DNA from: a virus
DNA length: 24,545 nt
IMG/VR virus record: IMGVR_UViG_3300036770_001201
Location: 1 to 24,545 of that record
Strand: one strand, 5' to 3'
A program made the translations under genes and the position numbers. Shown here one piece after another: positions 1,021-23,713 of the stretch. The notes beneath the pieces were generated by a model. The model saw nothing but the letters and a program-made list of their open reading frames with translations, was not told the DNA's origin and made no database searches. Position 1 is the first letter of the stretch. The number at the start of each line of letters is the position of its first letter.

Positions 1021-4000
1021 TGTCTGCTAATGTAATCCTAAAACAAATTTTACTCAAACGCGGTAACAGTGCTGTAAGCAGCACTTATGTAGGTCCATTA
1101 GGCGAAATTACACTTGATACCACATTTAAAACCATACGCATTCATGATGGCATTACCCCAGGCGGCAATCTTATAGCACAAGGCGCACAGGGTCCTGCTG
1201 GTCCTGCCGGTAGTCCAGGTGGAGCTACTGGGCCACAAGGTAACATTGGTAGTACAGGTGCCACTGGTTTACATGTTACTTCAGCCAATGTCACAGTTGG
1301 TAATTTGTTGATCACACTGTCAAATTCACATGTTATAAACGCAGGCTTGGTTACAGGTGCCACAGGTCCCTCAGCTAATATTGCCATTTACGATGAGGGT
1401 AATTTAGTAATTGGTGCTGTAGCAAGTATAAATTTTGTTGGTGCCATAGTCACTGCCGACACCGTCGGTGCTAATGTTAATGTGACCATAGTGGGTAATA
1501 ATGTACCACTGAGCTCAGATAGATTAGTCAGCGGTAACGCACAAGTTGTTCTTAATACCAGTGGGCCAGAACCTTATGTGTTATTTCCTGCTGCTAGTGA
1601 TGGTCAGCAGCTACAACTATCCCAAGCAGAACTATCAAGCGTATCGGGCAATCTTGCTCTAACTTCTGCAGAAGATGCTTTAATAATCGCCAACGGTAGT
1701 GGAGCAGTACCGGGTGGTTCTCGACTTTGGCGATTTGATAGAACAGGTAGCATAACATTACCTAACAATGCTGTTATCAAAGATACTGCCACAAATTCTA
1801 TATCATTTGGTTTAAGAGCTGGAGACTCGGGGCAAGGTACTCTTACTGTGGCCATTGGTAGTCAAGCAGGTGAAATTAATCAAGGTCTTCAATCTACTGC
1901 TGTAGGTAGTGGGGCAGGAAACTATAACCAAGGCATAGGAACTGTGGCCATTGGAACTAATGCAGGTGCGTTCAACCAAGGACTTAGAGCAGTAGCAATT
2001 GGTGGTCTAGCAGGATCTCAAAATCAAGGCGAATACGCTGTGGCCTTGGGAAATTTCGCAGGTGGTACTAACCAGCCCAACAATAGTATCATAATCAATG
2101 CCAGTGGTACTGCGCTGAATGGGTCTGCTTCGGGGCTATTCATTGACCCCGTCAGAGAAATAGTTGGTACAAAAATTGTTTATTATAACTCATCTACTAA
2201 AGAAATTACCACTGGTCCAATTGGGTTAACCAGTAACAGCAATGTTAGCATCACTAGCAACAATAATGTTTGGACATTTGGCACAGATGGCGGATTACGC
2301 ACACCCGATAATCAGTTAACCATTGGCGGATATACTGTACAGGCCAGTAACAACAATGAAATAGATTTGTCAAATGGCCCTGATATAACAATCAAGAGCA
2401 ATGTTGGTGGCGTAGCCATTGTGGCTAATTGGGCAGTAAATCCTGCTGAATGGGGATTTCTCCCCGACGGCAATATCGAGTTGCCCAACGGTACACGCAT
2501 ACGCGACATCGGTAGTTATGTTAGCAACACTAGTGGTTTAGAACTAGGCAATCACGGTTTCCGACTGGATTTTGGTAGTCCCACAAACGATTGGGCTATA
2601 ATGTCTGGCGCTCGTTTGATTCAAGTTCAGCCCGACGAAATATTCAATATTTCTTTCGCCGAACAGGCCAATTGGCAATTCGCTAACACTGGTAATATTA
2701 CATTTCCAGATGGCACCATACAATCTACTGCTATACCCAACAAAATAACCAGTAATACTGCTAACTTAATCATAAATGGCCTAGGGCCGGAACCGTATGT
2801 GTTATTTCCTGCTGCTAGCACCGGTGGACAGCTACAGATTTCCGAAGCCGAGTTATCAAGTATAGCAGGTAATCTGGCTCTGACATCTGTTCAAGATGCT
2901 TTTGTAATCAGCAACGGCGATGGTTCGGTGCCGGGTGGGTCAAAACTCTGGAAGTTTGATCGTACAGGGAATTTAGTTTTACCGCAAACTGCTATGGATG
3001 TAAGCCCAGCCCCAGTTAGCTGGCCTGGTATTACATTCAGTGATGGTACATTTCAAAACACAGCCTACACGGGAGGCGGAGCTGCTGGCACAGTTGACAT
3101 CACTAATACCAATGGCTTAACCACTACCTACTATCCAACCTTTGTGGAAAGTAGAACCAGTGGGCAGTACATGAGAGCTGATGTTGACCTGACCTATCGT
3201 ACAGATGATAATTTGTTACGGGCAGGCAATATTCAAGTTGGTAGAAACATATATGGATCCGCTTTTTATGGTATCAGTACCGCTATTCAGTTAAGACCTA
3301 ACATAGATATAGATAAAAGGTTTTTATTTACTGTTGACTCTAGTGGTGGCAACTATATCCGTTCCGGCATGGAAATGCCCATGGCAGAAGTTGATAAAGC
3401 AGTAACCTTAGCGTTCCCACATGATAACAGCACTGCGGGTTATATATTCAACCAAGGTACAGACACAAATGGCACAGAATGGAACGATGCCTTAGTTATT
3501 TTCCAGAATGGCGGCAATGTCAAGATTGGTACAATAACCGGAGTTAATGGCAATAAAGTTTGGGAATTTAACCAGACTGGTAATTTGACTCTTCCACAAA
3601 CCGCTATGGATGTAAGCCCAGCCCCGGTTAGCTGGCCTGGTATCACATTTAGTGATGGTACCTTTCAAAACACAGCCTATACAGGTGGCGGAGGAGCTGC
3701 TAGTACAGTTGATATAACCAACACCAACGGCTTAACCACTACCTACTATCCAACCTTTGTGGAAAGTAGAACCAATGGGCAGTACATGCGAGCTGATGTG
3801 GACTTGACCTATCGTACAGATACCAATACCTTAACCGCTGGCAATATGGCCACTGGCGTTCTAAAGATAGAAGACGGTGTCCACGAAAAGTTCCAGACTA
3901 AATCAAACGCCACAGGTACTGTGACACACGATTGTTCCTCAGGACACATATTCTATCACACACTACCCAATGCTAACTGGACTGTAAACCTTACCAACCT

Positions 4001-4220: not shown

Positions 4221-5567
4221 ATGTTTTCATCATTTACAGGAGCGAGCAAGTTTGGTCGTAGGAGAAAAATAACTCTGCCTTCTGCAGCACTGGCTCTACA
4301 TCTAGATGCTACAGGTGGTTATACTGGCGTAGTTTGGCAGGATCTTACTGCCAATGGCAACGATGCTACATTGGGCGGAACACCCAGGCACGTCGGCGGA
4401 TCTGGTGCTTATTTTGATCTCGTGCCCGGGGACGGAGATTATTTTACCATTGCTGACCAAACTGTGTTGGATTCGATGACAGAGATTTCTGTGCTGATGT
4501 GGATCAATATTGACGCGATCAATGCCGCAGGCCCTAATATGCTGTACAGCAAACGAGGCACAACTTCAGACGGCTATGTGGGATTCTTCACCACCACAGG
4601 ATGGACCTTTCGTTTTGGTACAGGCACAGGCACAGGTTTAACCTATGGCACAGCGCCCACAACTAACATGTGGCAGCAAGTGGTTGTTACTATAGGTTCC
4701 GCGGGCAGCAAGATGTATATTAATGACGCACAAGTGGCCAGTTCTGGCTACACTGGGACTAGCAGCAACATCAACACCTCAGCGGCGTTGGATCTATTTG
4801 AAGTAAACCCTAGACCACAGTCTGGCCCGGTAAAGATGAACGGTAAAGTTGGCATATTTAAGATCTACAATGGTGTGTTGACACTGGCAGAAGTTCAGGC
4901 AGAATACAATACCTACAAAGACAGATATATCGTTACTAACGGTCTACAACTTTATCTACAACCAGAAGCCTACAGTGGCAGCGGTACCAATTGGACTGAC
5001 AGCAGTGACAATACATACACAACCACATTAGTAGGTGCTCCTACTTACAATACCACATACTTCAACTTTCCCAATACCACTGCTAGATACATAGACACTA
5101 ACCAAAGTCTAGCATCAGAATCGTTTTCAGTAGGTCTATGGTTTAGAACTTCGGCAGCTGGTATAAAAATGACCATATGTAAAGAAACCGCAGCAGGTTG
5201 GCCTTGGAACTATCGAATATGGCTAAATGGTGGTTCTATCAATGCTGATACTGCAAATAGTTCAGGTACTTATGAAAGCATTGAATCACCACTCTCTACA
5301 TACAACAATGGCAACTGGTATTTGGTGATGTTTACCAGAGATGCTTCTAATCTTAGATTATATGTAAATGGTAGTGAAGTTGCCAACGGTGCTGCTAGTC
5401 TTGCTACAGTTTCTAACAGTCAAGAAGTATGGATTGGTCGTAGCGCATACAGCGGTGCTTTCCAATGGGTTGGAGATTTTGGCGAAACTTTCATTTACAA
5501 CAGAGTGTTGACTAGCACTGAGATACTACAGAACTTCAATGCTACTCGAGCCACATATGGATTATAA
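4221..5567 (+). CDS. Tandem LamG/concanavalin-like adhesin, tail-fibre associated
   Basis: A 448-aa protein made of two concanavalin A-like (LamG, Laminin_G_3-type) jelly-roll domains. The first runs from about residue 22 to 235 (ALALHLDAT, WQDLTANGNDATL, then ISVLMWINID and FKIYNGVLTLAEV). The second runs from about 240 to 448 (LQLYLQPEAYSG, FSVGLWFRTS, LRLYVNGSEVANG, FIYNRVLTSTEILQNF). The endings 'IYNxxLTxxEIxxxYN' are typical of this fold. The N-terminus MFSSFTGASKFGRRRK is basic and resembles the start of several cyanophage structural proteins. The ATG directly follows the stop of the long fibre, so the two are probably co-translated. Likely a glycan-binding fibre or decoration component; the enzyme-like fold alone does not imply catalysis. 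Confidence 0.85.
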   Translation: MFSSFTGASKFGRRRKITLPSAALALHLDATGGYTGVVWQDLTANGNDATLGGTPRHVGGSGAYFDLVPGDGDYFTIADQTVLDSMTEISVLMWINIDAINAAGPNMLYSKRGTTSDGYVGFFTTTGWTFRFGTGTGTGLTYGTAPTTNMWQQVVVTIGSAGSKMYINDAQVASSGYTGTSSNINTSAALDLFEVNPRPQSGPVKMNGKVGIFKIYNGVLTLAEVQAEYNTYKDRYIVTNGLQLYLQPEAYSGSGTNWTDSSDNTYTTTLVGAPTYNTTYFNFPNTTARYIDTNQSLASESFSVGLWFRTSAAGIKMTICKETAAGWPWNYRIWLNGGSINADTANSSGTYESIESPLSTYNNGNWYLVMFTRDASNLRLYVNGSEVANGAASLATVSNSQEVWIGRSAYSGAFQWVGDFGETFIYNRVLTSTEILQNFNATRATYGL

Positions 5568-5577
5568 GGAATAAACA

Positions 5578-5764
5578 ATGATAGATAATTTGCCACACCC
5601 TAAACACCACATGGCAACAACCATTCACATGGAGTTTTCCTTGGCAAGGTGATGTAGCCATTTACAATGTACAAGACGTTACCAATCGTAGATTTTACAG
5701 AATCACACTCAGCATCGGTGGTGGATATAAAAAGAACACCATTATTATGGAAAGAATGGTGTAG
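5578..5764 (+). pseudogene. Small structural gene broken by a +1 frameshift
   Basis: ATG 5578 has a good ribosome binding site (AAGGA, 7 nt upstream), but its frame stops after 24 codons. Moving +1 near 5605 opens a frame to TAG 5762-5764 encoding TTWQQPFTWSFPW, then VTNRRFYRITLSIGGGYKKN. This has the character of a short beta-strand structural domain seen at the ends of T4-like phage tail proteins. Joining the two frames would give a protein of about 61 aa (MIDNLPHPK + TTWQQ...). Either a one-base indel has broken it or the read contains an error. It lies directly after the LamG gene. Confidence 0.55.
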
Positions 5765-5772
5765 TTGCTGAG

Positions 5773-5801
5773 TTGTGTTCGTAGTCAACATCGTGTATAA
5801 T
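5773..5801 (+). promoter_or_regulatory. Sigma70-like early promoter (TTGTGT-17-TATAAT)
   Basis: A -35 TTGTGT at 5773-5778, a 17-nt spacer and a perfect -10 TATAAT at 5796-5801. Initiation would be near 5808, immediately before the ATG at 5809. Probably the ancestral promoter of the primase-helicase operon. Confidence 0.5.
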
Positions 5802-5817
5802 ATTAAAGATGTTGACT
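5783..5817. repeat. Perfect 10-bp inverted repeat around the -10 box and ATG
   Basis: AGTCAACATC (5783-5792) and GATGTTGACT (5808-5817) are perfect inverted copies separated by 15 nt. The -10 box lies between the arms and the ATG (5809) lies in the right arm. It could be an operator, or an RNA hairpin formed only in transcripts that read through from upstream. Confidence 0.6.
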
Positions 5818-5955
5818 GCTGTTCAAGACGCTGTATTACAACTACTACCCTCTCGACGCCGCACCAGTTCGAGTGGATGGATCTCATTCAACGCACCTTG
5901 CTGTCATCACCGCGGACATAAACCCGACACTAGAAGTCGTGGACATTTGCTTTAA
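5809..5955 (+). pseudogene. Truncated N-terminal fragment of a second gp61-like primase
   Basis: Encodes 48 aa starting MLTAVQDAVLQLL and ending RGHLL, stop TAA 5953-5955. Residues 22-46 (SGWISFNAPCCHHRG..DTRSRG) align with SGWISGNAVCCQYRG..DTRGRG near the N-terminus of the primase at 6628-7608, with about 16 of 25 positions identical. It therefore carries the first half of the same zinc-binding module (the CC pair) and ends before the second pair of cysteines. The DNA is too diverged to be a simple recent tandem copy. A GIY-YIG gene sits between the two versions. I infer that it is the old 5' end of the primase gene, displaced when the endonuclease and a foreign primase 5' end came in. It might still be translated as a free mini-protein. 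Confidence 0.65.
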
Positions 5956-5965
5956 TTGTTACTTA

Positions 5966-5973
5966 GATAAATA
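5966..5973 (+). promoter_or_regulatory. T4-type late promoter variant (GATAAATA)
   Basis: Seven of eight positions match TATAAATA. The predicted +1 is near 5979, the A of the endonuclease ATG. It overlaps the left arm of the inverted repeat 5971-5993. Confidence 0.45.
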
Positions 5974-5993
5974 TATGTATGAAATACATATAT
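5971..5993 (+). promoter_or_regulatory. Start-codon hairpin of the homing endonuclease
   Basis: ATATATGTAT (5971-5980), loop GAA, ATACATATAT (5984-5993): a perfect 10-bp stem with the ATG (5979-5981) at its tip. Read-through RNA would bury the start; RNA starting at the late promoter would lack the left arm. Confidence 0.6.
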
Positions 5994-6659
5994 CTTATAA
6001 CTTCACCATCTGGTAAACAATACATAGGACAATCAAAGGTATCTATCGAACAAAAAATTAAGTCCTATTTAATATTAGAAAAAAATAAAAAATCTAATAG
6101 ATTAATTGCTAATGCTATTCAGAAATACGGCTGGGCTCAAATGAAATTCGAAATACTTGAATCTAATGACAACTGGTCACAGGAACAATTAAATTCAAGA
6201 GAGATTTTTTGGATAGAAAAATATAATACTTTACTAGAAGGCTACAATATGACCTCCGGTGGAGAAGGTGTTGATTCGGAATGTGCTCGCAGTAATGCCA
6301 TTAAACATCATAGAACAATGTCTAATGAAAAAAAGGCACAAAGAGCAGAAAATTGTAGTAAAGGGCAACTTAAAAGGTTTCAACAACAGCCTGATTCAGA
6401 AGAAACAAAAAAACGGAAACGAGACTCACACAATGGTTTATATAGAATAGAATCACCGGATGGGCGTGTATGGGAAACAAATATTGGTCTCAAAGGTTTC
6501 GCAGAAGAATTCAAAAATGAAATTCAAATTACTTATTGGCAGTTGTTCTCGGCATATAGAAAGTGTTATACTAACACTCTTACTATTAGAAAAATGAAAA
6601 ATAACAATTGTTGGAAAGTAATAAGACTTGATAAATTTAGTTACAGATACGACACTTAA
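5979..6659 (+). CDS. GIY-YIG homing endonuclease
   Basis: A 226-aa freestanding homing endonuclease that would cleave DNA to spread itself. The N-terminal GIY-YIG module is clear: YIYLITSPSGKQYIGQSK at residues 3-20, REIFWIEKYNT with the expected catalytic Glu near residue 77, and GYNMTSGGEG after it. The C-terminal half is lysine/arginine rich (EETKKRKRDSHNG) and probably binds DNA. An oddity: where I-TevI has RWKRH (catalytic Arg27) this protein reads KIKSY, so the Arg and the following His-like position look replaced. The gene is much more AT-rich than its neighbours, and its 3' end overlaps the primase start by 32 nt, both signs of transfer. Its start codon lies in a perfect hairpin with a late promoter, recalling I-TevI control in T4. 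Confidence 0.88.
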   Translation: MKYIYLITSPSGKQYIGQSKVSIEQKIKSYLILEKNKKSNRLIANAIQKYGWAQMKFEILESNDNWSQEQLNSREIFWIEKYNTLLEGYNMTSGGEGVDSECARSNAIKHHRTMSNEKKAQRAENCSKGQLKRFQQQPDSEETKKRKRDSHNGLYRIESPDGRVWETNIGLKGFAEEFKNEIQITYWQLFSAYRKCYTNTLTIRKMKNNNCWKVIRLDKFSYRYDT

Positions 6660-7608
6660 CTTATGGATTTCTGGAAGAAAAACTAGAAAATCTCCTTCTG
6701 GATGGATTTCTGGAAACGCAGTGTGTTGTCAGTATCGTGGCGAGACTGCCGATACTCGTGGTCGTGGTGGTGTCTTAGTAAGTTCAGACAATCAAATAAT
6801 CTATTCCTGTTTTAACTGCCAATTTAAAACTGGTTATCGACCCGGCCAACATTTAGGATATCGGTTTAGAAGATTACTGTCTTGGTTAGGCGCAGATGAA
6901 AATACTATAAATCGGCTGGTCATAGAAACAGTTAGGATCAAAGATATAGCTGGTACTAGATCCATTGAACCCGAACCTGTTGAAATTGACTTCAAGGCTC
7001 GTGCACTGCCTGATCCAGTTTATTTGGTAGAGCAAGATGCTGCTGCGTTAAAATACTGCCAAGACCGTGGCATTGACTTAAATAAATATCCCATGCTGGT
7101 AACTGACCGCACCGAGCACAATCTTAATCGTAGAGTAATAATACCATTTACTTGGCAAAATAGATTAATTGGATATACAGCAAGAGCCTGGGACGCCGCA
7201 GTCAAACCCAAATATCATAGCCAATATGAGCCTAATTATGTTTACAACATGGATCAACAACGCCCACACGCTGAATTTGTGATTGTATGCGAAGGTCCAT
7301 TTGATGCCATGGCCATAGATGGTATAGCGGTACTTGGGAACGATTGTTCGGAAACACAAGCTGACATCATTGACAGTCTAGGACGAGAAGTCATACTAGT
7401 ACCAGACCAGGATCGTGCGGGTCAACAACTGATTCGACGAGCACAAGAATACGGTTGGTCGGTGGCGTTCCCGGTCTGGGCAGAAACGTCAAAAGACATC
7501 AATGAAGCTGTAACACGATATGGTAAGTTGTTTGTGCTTAAAAGCATATTAGATTCCAAAGAAACCAGCAGATTAAAAATTGAACTATTAAGGAAGCGTT
7601 TAAATTAG
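6628..7608 (+). CDS. DNA primase, T4 gp61-like (Zn ribbon + TOPRIM)
   Basis: A 326-aa primase that would make RNA primers for lagging-strand synthesis together with the adjacent helicase. The N-terminal zinc module has CC near residues 31-32 and YSCFNCQF near residue 60. The TOPRIM core follows, with VIVCEGPFDAMAIDG near residue 215 (metal-binding Glu) and VILVPDQDRAGQQL near residue 255 (DxD). The start is unusual: TTG 6628, inside the end of the endonuclease gene, with GGAAAG 9 nt upstream; no ATG lies between it and the zinc motif. The 5' end seems to have arrived with the endonuclease, because another diverged primase 5' end lies upstream at 5809-5955. The stop is 1 nt from the helicase ATG. 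Confidence 0.88.
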   Translation: MINLVTDTTLNLWISGRKTRKSPSGWISGNAVCCQYRGETADTRGRGGVLVSSDNQIIYSCFNCQFKTGYRPGQHLGYRFRRLLSWLGADENTINRLVIETVRIKDIAGTRSIEPEPVEIDFKARALPDPVYLVEQDAAALKYCQDRGIDLNKYPMLVTDRTEHNLNRRVIIPFTWQNRLIGYTARAWDAAVKPKYHSQYEPNYVYNMDQQRPHAEFVIVCEGPFDAMAIDGIAVLGNDCSETQADIIDSLGREVILVPDQDRAGQQLIRRAQEYGWSVAFPVWAETSKDINEAVTRYGKLFVLKSILDSKETSRLKIELLRKRLN

Positions 7609-23386: not shown

Positions 23387-23713
23387 ATGGAAAAAGCAAC
23401 TCGTACTCGTAAACGCAGACAAGACACTAAGCATGCCTTGTACATGATCGTCAATGTAGTGACTAACGAGCACTATGTTGGCATCACAGTATGCGGTAGT
23501 CAAGTCAATCGCGCACTGAAAATTCGCTGGCAAAAGCATGTTCGTCGTGCTGTAACAGAGAACAAGTCGTGGGCCTTATGCAACAGTATTCGCACTCACG
23601 GCGCAGAAGCTCATGTCATGCTGTTAGTTGACATCGTGCGCGGACGCAAGCCCGCGCATGCCGCAGAGCGCGAAATTGTAAATTCATGTGCCCCGGCACT
23701 AAACACGCATTAA
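23387..23713 (+). CDS. Small GIY-YIG nuclease-like protein
   Basis: A 108-aa single GIY-YIG domain. LYMIVNVVTNEHYVGIT gives the GIY and YVG motifs (residues 18-34), IRWQKHVRRA the Arg-containing helix, AEREIVN the metal-binding Glu, and PALNT the conserved Asn. All catalytic positions look intact, unlike the 5979-6659 enzyme. There is no separate DNA-binding domain, but the N-terminus is very basic (TRTRKRRQDTK). No ribosome binding site: the promoter places +1 on the ATG, so the mRNA is probably leaderless. GC content is higher than in most of the window. It may be a mobile or anti-host nuclease expressed early. Confidence 0.82.
   Translation: MEKATRTRKRRQDTKHALYMIVNVVTNEHYVGITVCGSQVNRALKIRWQKHVRRAVTENKSWALCNSIRTHGAEAHVMLLVDIVRGRKPAHAAEREIVNSCAPALNTH

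Follow-up and report, generated by a model that had tools for sequence, protein, structure and literature searches.

The region at nt 5943–6807 of the window, the 24,545-base stretch of an uncultured virus record analyzed here, is very probably a homing-endonuclease cassette that replaced the 5' end of its target primase gene upon insertion. Alignments with related loci showed a unit made up of a short leader, a GIY-YIG gene and a B-type primase 5' end that starts inside the endonuclease gene. The same alignments placed this unit within a resident A-type primase, whose original 5' end was left stranded on the upstream side and whose original body was taken into use again after the CFNC codons.

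Organization of the primase region

The window carried tail genes, a primase, a DnaB-like helicase and a class I ribonucleotide reductase. Features of the primase region were as follows (L001 and L002 are the nearest relatives found).

5597–5764, + strand: 3' remnant of the upstream tail gene, which is a 281-codon gene in L001/L002
5773–5801, + strand: putative resident sigma70-like promoter (TTGTGT, 17-nt spacer, TATAAT), read from sequence
5809–5942, + strand: stranded resident primase 5' end, A-type, 98.5% DNA identity to L001/L002
5943–5945: left junction of resident DNA and inserted block; homology to L001/L002 ends at 5942
5946–5978, + strand: cassette leader, 33 bp, ending at the GIY-YIG start; its edge is conserved in 23 distinct cassettes
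5979–6659, + strand: AT-rich GIY-YIG homing endonuclease gene, 226 aa, assigned by PHROG, I-TevI profile and predicted fold
6613–6618, + strand: GGAAAG, putative ribosome-binding-like sequence within the endonuclease gene
6628–6807, + strand: foreign B-type primase 5' end up to the CFNC codons, diverged from L002
6808–7608, + strand: resident primase body, starting at the CFNC codons, near-identical to L002
7610–9001, + strand: DnaB-like replicative helicase (Pfam DnaB_C, 9e-20), resident downstream neighbour

The gene upstream of the primase (nt 5580–5764) was internally deleted and out of frame, with the 3' end alone left, and homology to the 281-codon gene of L001/L002 started only at nt 5597. 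As judged from the alignments, this remnant and the following spacer are the resident left flank, since DNA identity to L001/L002 was 98.5% from nt 5597/5606 to 5942. The putative sigma70-like promoter ended 7 nt upstream of the ATG of the stranded primase fragment (hereafter the stub), and its copy in L002 differed in one spacer base. On the other side, the DnaB-like helicase gene was collinear with that of L001/L002.

Homology to the cassettes of two other loci (L039 and L044) began at nt 5944. The leader contained TTTGCTTTAATTGT, a relic of CFNC codons from the primase; next to it stands an ATAAATA box resembling a late promoter (nt 5967–5973). The complete primase was predicted from nt 6628 to 7608; its TTG start lies inside the GIY-YIG gene, with which its first 32 nt overlap, and GGAAAG is located 9 nt upstream of this TTG and is kept as W-K-V codons in nearly all cassettes.

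Comparison with relatives lacking the endonuclease

Both L001 and L002 lacked the endonuclease and had the 5809-type end fused straight to the primase body, an arrangement that the sequence-only reading had proposed to look for in relatives. The site was therefore polymorphic for presence and absence, empty in L001/L002 and occupied in the window. From the CFNC codons (nt 6808) on, the primase body shared about 97.7% to 99% DNA identity with L002 (99% over the first 780 nt), and the body protein was identical to that of L001 across 266 columns. The B-type 5' end shared 47% to 63% identity with L002 per 30-nt bin, versus 97% to 100% just downstream. High identity up to nt 5942, a near-identical body from nt 6808 and a different allele in between indicate that the resident gene was opened at the CFNC codons or immediately ahead of them, its 5' end being left behind and a foreign one joined to the body. 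The proposal that an endonuclease had invaded the primase of a relative, leaving the resident 5' end stranded and a foreign 5' end on the body, was thus borne out.

The stub lies downstream of the tail-gene remnant, in a 48-aa ORF at nt 5809–5955. Its homology to the resident primase stopped at nt 5942, the ORF reaching nt 5955 through codons of the inserted block; the zinc site lacked its CFNC half in frame, and the resident gene had lost about 40 bp between its RG and CFNC codons. When the complete primase was searched against the window, the stub was the sole other match (58% identity over 33 aa, E = 6.6e-8), and the two 5' ends shared only about 45% identity at the DNA level, in agreement with the earlier claim of homologous proteins with diverged DNA. 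Alignment of SGWISFNAPCCHHRGHKPDTRSRG in the stub with SGWISGNAVCCQYRGETADTRGRG in the N-terminus of the complete primase gave 16 identical residues of 24, in line with the about 16 of 25 noted before. Likewise, two 5' ends do flank the endonuclease as had been described for nt 5809–6760, although the inserted block extends farther, to nt 6807.

The endonuclease

The GIY-YIG gene product matched PHROG homing endonuclease families (9.6e-20), the family profile matched the I-TevI catalytic domain (E = 6e-4), and the predicted fold matched 1ln0 with a TM score of 0.77 to 0.79 of target; these three matches identify the enzyme as having a GIY-YIG catalytic fold. The Pfam GIY-YIG model matched only 4 of 16 family members. 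Residues Y5, Y15, G17, E75 and N90 were invariant in the family, as was R41. The position of I-TevI Arg27 was not conserved, being Lys in most members, and the protein may therefore not be an active endonuclease despite the invariant E75, N90 and R41. A search of isolate phages returned no full-length relative of the endonuclease (best coverage 77%), and the primase itself shared at most 34.5% identity with isolates.

Occurrence of the cassette in related phages

Cassette loci were gathered by protein searches and, independently, by scanning DNA for the leader pattern (TTTGYTTTAAYTGYN{8,11}TAAATANNNNTATG). The cassette was found in 61 loci, of which 23 were distinct after dereplication. All distinct cassettes had a sharp left edge followed by 32–34 nt to the endonuclease start, and a B-type primase followed the endonuclease wherever the contig was long enough; the primase start, a TTG in those examined, was among the final codons of the endonuclease gene. 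The first 16 nt of the leader shared 84% identity between distinct cassettes, a figure inflated because the loci had been collected with the leader pattern, versus 34% for the adjoining 16 nt on the left side and 42% for third positions of the codons that open the endonuclease gene. The best match of the leader within its own primase was at CFNC-2 in 14 of the 17 cassette loci tested, and that of the window leader was at the same place in 60 of 82 A-type genes. Single scores in both comparisons were often within the shuffled range; similarity to an operator was accordingly rejected as a per-locus test, and only the repeated position is telling.

Left of the edge, a truncated resident primase start was present in 14 of the 23 distinct cassettes and missing in the other nine, as counted by direct inspection of the upstream sequence because the automatic finder was unreliable for L054, L086, L090, L100, L101 and L103. 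The stubs broke at different points, such as MLNSIRD, ...LPAKK, ...SGWIS and ...DTRSRG. Recurrence of stub, endonuclease and foreign 5' end, with different stubs in many phages, contradicts the earlier view of the footprint as an unusual, single event. It also bears on a simpler account, by which an ordinary free-standing endonuclease of the T4 Seg type dragged a 5' end along once by flank co-conversion and the stub is an accidental leftover. Such co-conversion is well documented for the T4 seg genes (PMC2988022), and the enzyme belongs to that class, but stub and foreign 5' end occur together in those 14 cassettes, whose left edge is fixed and whose right edge falls at CFNC or close to it. 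In those examined, moreover, the replacement start is inside the endonuclease gene, which makes the 5' end part of the mobile unit. The same endonuclease beside an A-type primase lacking 5' replacement was seen at none of the 109 A-type loci, and this account is improbable.

It had also been suggested that the stub might be a free zinc mini-protein, since the fragment had a promoter and a start. Both were indeed intact in the window, as far as a promoter can be read from sequence, and the window stub was almost the same as the L002 counterpart. A functional small zinc protein under selection is nevertheless very unlikely, as the stubs ranged from 7 to 48 codons with varied break points and frames, that of the distant locus L169 had in-frame stops, nine distinct cassettes had no stub, and the window stub lacks the CFNC half. 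The near-identity to L002 is attributable to recent insertion, because flank and body were equally similar to L002. Nor was the stub a separate conserved gene, and the similarity between the two 5' ends was significant, the two points on which the sequence-only reading could have failed.

Two sets of loci documented transfer of the cassette. Between L172/L197/L199/L217 and L205/L207/L210/L212/L213 the cassette was 99.8% identical, versus 63% to 64% for the upstream region and the primase body; on the left the shared block reached 20 nt beyond the edge, into the SGW codons of the stub, and on the right it stopped in the CFNC codons. In the second case (L083/L085), the shared block extended from the stub start codon to about 25 nt past CFNC. 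Since these boundaries lie in primase codons, the unit moves as a block with primase-coding homology at its ends, and a leftover stub can serve as the arm on the left. These alignments showed that the cassette has moved repeatedly between divergent phages. Although all sequences were metagenome contigs, chimeric assembly is scarcely credible, for the arrangement was present in all 61 loci, which came from many samples and whose stubs were lineage-specific, and each identical transfer block was seen in several contigs.

Primase alleles and phylogeny

Among 183 primase loci, 109 were A-type, and an endonuclease of either family was present in none of these; the 43 endonuclease-bearing loci were all B-type except for one odd locus, L177. 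In the tree of primase bodies, the A/B label called for 20 changes, with well-supported branches forcing at least 12 for A; for the cassette label the count was 14, of which such branches forced at least 10. In the N-terminal tree a single A/B change sufficed. The trees were quick ones, and the counts do not separate gain from loss. Since the A/B labels were defined on the N-terminus, only the body-tree result is independent. Identity jumped at CFNC in every pair of cassette and A-type loci compared, whereas 5' ends as diverged were seen in none of 95 A-A control pairs with a comparable distance between bodies. Primase N-termini in this phage group thus do not track phage descent.

By tree path, the B-type N-terminus of the window was nearest to those of the cassette loci L083/L085. 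No donor of the window's cassette was found among the loci searched, the best endonuclease being 73% identical. That the B-type end is nearest to other cassettes and not to the resident also speaks against an origin in which one phage duplicated its primase 5' end in tandem and the copies then diverged and received the endonuclease; two related copies do stand side by side, but their DNA identity of about 45% compares with 97% to 99% between stub or body and L002, no close relatives with two similar A-type copies were seen, and this origin is hardly tenable. A group I intron or an intein carrying the endonuclease, with the two ends as exons, is equally implausible even though the class is common to the intron-encoded I-TevI: no Rfam intron match at the gathering score was obtained in the window, only about 36 nt separate stub and endonuclease start, and the downstream primase is complete, so that nothing needs splicing.

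B-type 5' ends with no recognised endonuclease were found at about 20 distinct loci (including L015, L016, L018, L058, L074 and L157), and the B-type is therefore not exclusive to the cassette; some of these loci may be cured sites and others an old allele lineage. L015 and L018 had an N-terminus nearest to cassette loci and a body nearest to A-type, each at 65% to 70% DNA identity, a level at which their status as cured sites is merely suggestive. Locus L130 (nt 2650–2860) was a decayed cassette, in which the first bases of the leader were kept, as was the 3' portion of the endonuclease gene that includes the primase start, and the rest was deleted. A CNNNG cleavage motif at the His-Cys codons was considered as the determinant of resistance and rejected as insufficient, because the distributions overlap: the C was present in 67 of 82 A-type genes and absent in 15, and was also present in 3 of 21 cassette loci.

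Proposed mechanism

For the homing cassette, the following cycle is proposed. The endonuclease would cut an A-type primase at or near the CFNC codons, and the carried B-type allele would resist cleavage. The body side of the break would recombine with the donor primase body at CFNC, and the upstream side would be trimmed and then joined through homology to the residual stub of the donor or, alternatively, to the leader at its fixed left edge. Left edges could also be due in part to later trimming and not to the insertion event. I-TevI keeps hold of one side of its break, which leads to one-sided co-conversion (PMC2988022); a similar hold would account for a body side that stayed intact and a 5' side that was trimmed. 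The outcome would be a working, resistant primase translated from the TTG inside the endonuclease gene, an arrangement in which simple loss of the whole endonuclease gene also removes the primase start. The CFNC relic would be retained in the leader as a recombination arm or an I-TevI-like operator site, and could be both.

Comparison with known systems

The WHO elements of Torulaspora and Lachancea yeasts replace the 3' end of FBA1 with each insertion, the left-behind fragment serving as homology (PMC7282813). There, as in the phage cassette, an endonuclease gene and a replacement end of an essential target gene form the mobile unit (PMC7282813), the displaced end stays as a fragment and possible recombination arm, fragments and nuclease genes decay, and the target becomes chimeric with discordant phylogeny, which for the phage cassette is seen in the difference between the body and N-terminal trees. 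The two differ in that WHO replaces a 3' end, versus the primase 5' end, and belongs to LAGLIDADG/HO relatives in nuclear DNA, versus GIY-YIG in a phage host; a start codon inside the endonuclease gene is a feature of the phage unit. Cleavage and resistance were shown experimentally for WHO (PMC7282813), whereas those of the phage unit are deduced from sequence.

Mobile ORFs (mORFs) with duplicated gene ends are known in fungal mitochondria, in atp6 of Allomyces and in atp6, atp9, cox2 and nad3 of Glomus/Rhizophagus (PMC3630166). Here too an endonuclease ORF, in one case GIY-YIG, brings a foreign gene end and has the native end on its far side, and the native end matches close relatives whereas the foreign one does not. 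In contrast to the phage cassette, mORFs replace carboxy-terminal (3') ends, are mostly LAGLIDADG and reside in organelle genomes. The phage unit works like WHO and the mORFs and is not a member of either, since it involves the other gene end, another nuclease family and another host.

In T4, SegF and SegG of marker exclusion are likewise free-standing GIY-YIG endonucleases beside an essential replication gene, with flank co-conversion (PMC2988022), but seg genes are inserted between genes and leave the target intact, and no carried end with a stranded stub was described for them in the literature searched. Regulatory signals or promoters of the next gene embedded in T4 endonuclease genes favour retention (PMC2988022); the item embedded there is a promoter, and in the phage cassette it is a start codon. 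T4 mobA resembles the cassette in lying inside an essential phage gene of DNA metabolism, gene 39/60 (PMC3014915), but is of the HNH type, and the gene is split into two working parts with no new 5' end (PMC3014915). I-TevI shares the catalytic fold, and its upstream operator, which overlaps a late promoter, is similar to the homing site (PMC2988022); the phage cassette differs in having no intron, in its Arg27 position and in an operator that is putative.

The literature searched contained no report of such a gene-end-replacing unit in phages, which is not proof of absence; end-replacing homing was described there only for yeast WHO and fungal mitochondria, and the present case extends it to phages. 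In phages it is the 5' end that is exchanged, in a gene essential for replication, and the new start codon is locked in a selfish gene. As a tentative possibility, homing elements that replace gene ends may have arisen in phages as a class of their own, separately from those of fungi. In such elements the nuclease gene would hold the ribosome-binding site and start of the rebuilt gene, the stub would be the left arm and the CFNC relic would double as the operator of an autorepressor. Such a class would drive chimeric primase evolution across a large group of uncultured phages. Empty, long-stub, eroded-stub and degenerate sites offer a natural series for study of the homing cycle.

Other genes and inserts

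A second GIY-YIG family, with a gene of about 250 aa, was observed at L023 and L028–L030 (nt 3205–3960). In L023 and L028 this gene abuts the TTG of a B-type primase after a two-codon stub (ATG CTG), and a relative in L177 precedes an LP-type primase. A small second GIY-YIG ORF of the window (108 aa, nt 23387–23713, near the right end) gave a Pfam E of 0.012 and a PHROG E of 6.5e-5. In the long tail gene of the window, L001 matched nt 2932–3669 and 3555–3847 (within 2932–3847), indicating repeated modules there.

Single-gene inserts varied between primase and helicase (L040, nt 4900–5900; L039, 4950–5990; L022, 4940–6110; L034, 1180–1950; L025, 1150–2030), as if this spot accepts cargo. Two of them had CxxxCxxC-like motifs resembling radical-SAM proteins, and one was HNH-like and on the other strand.
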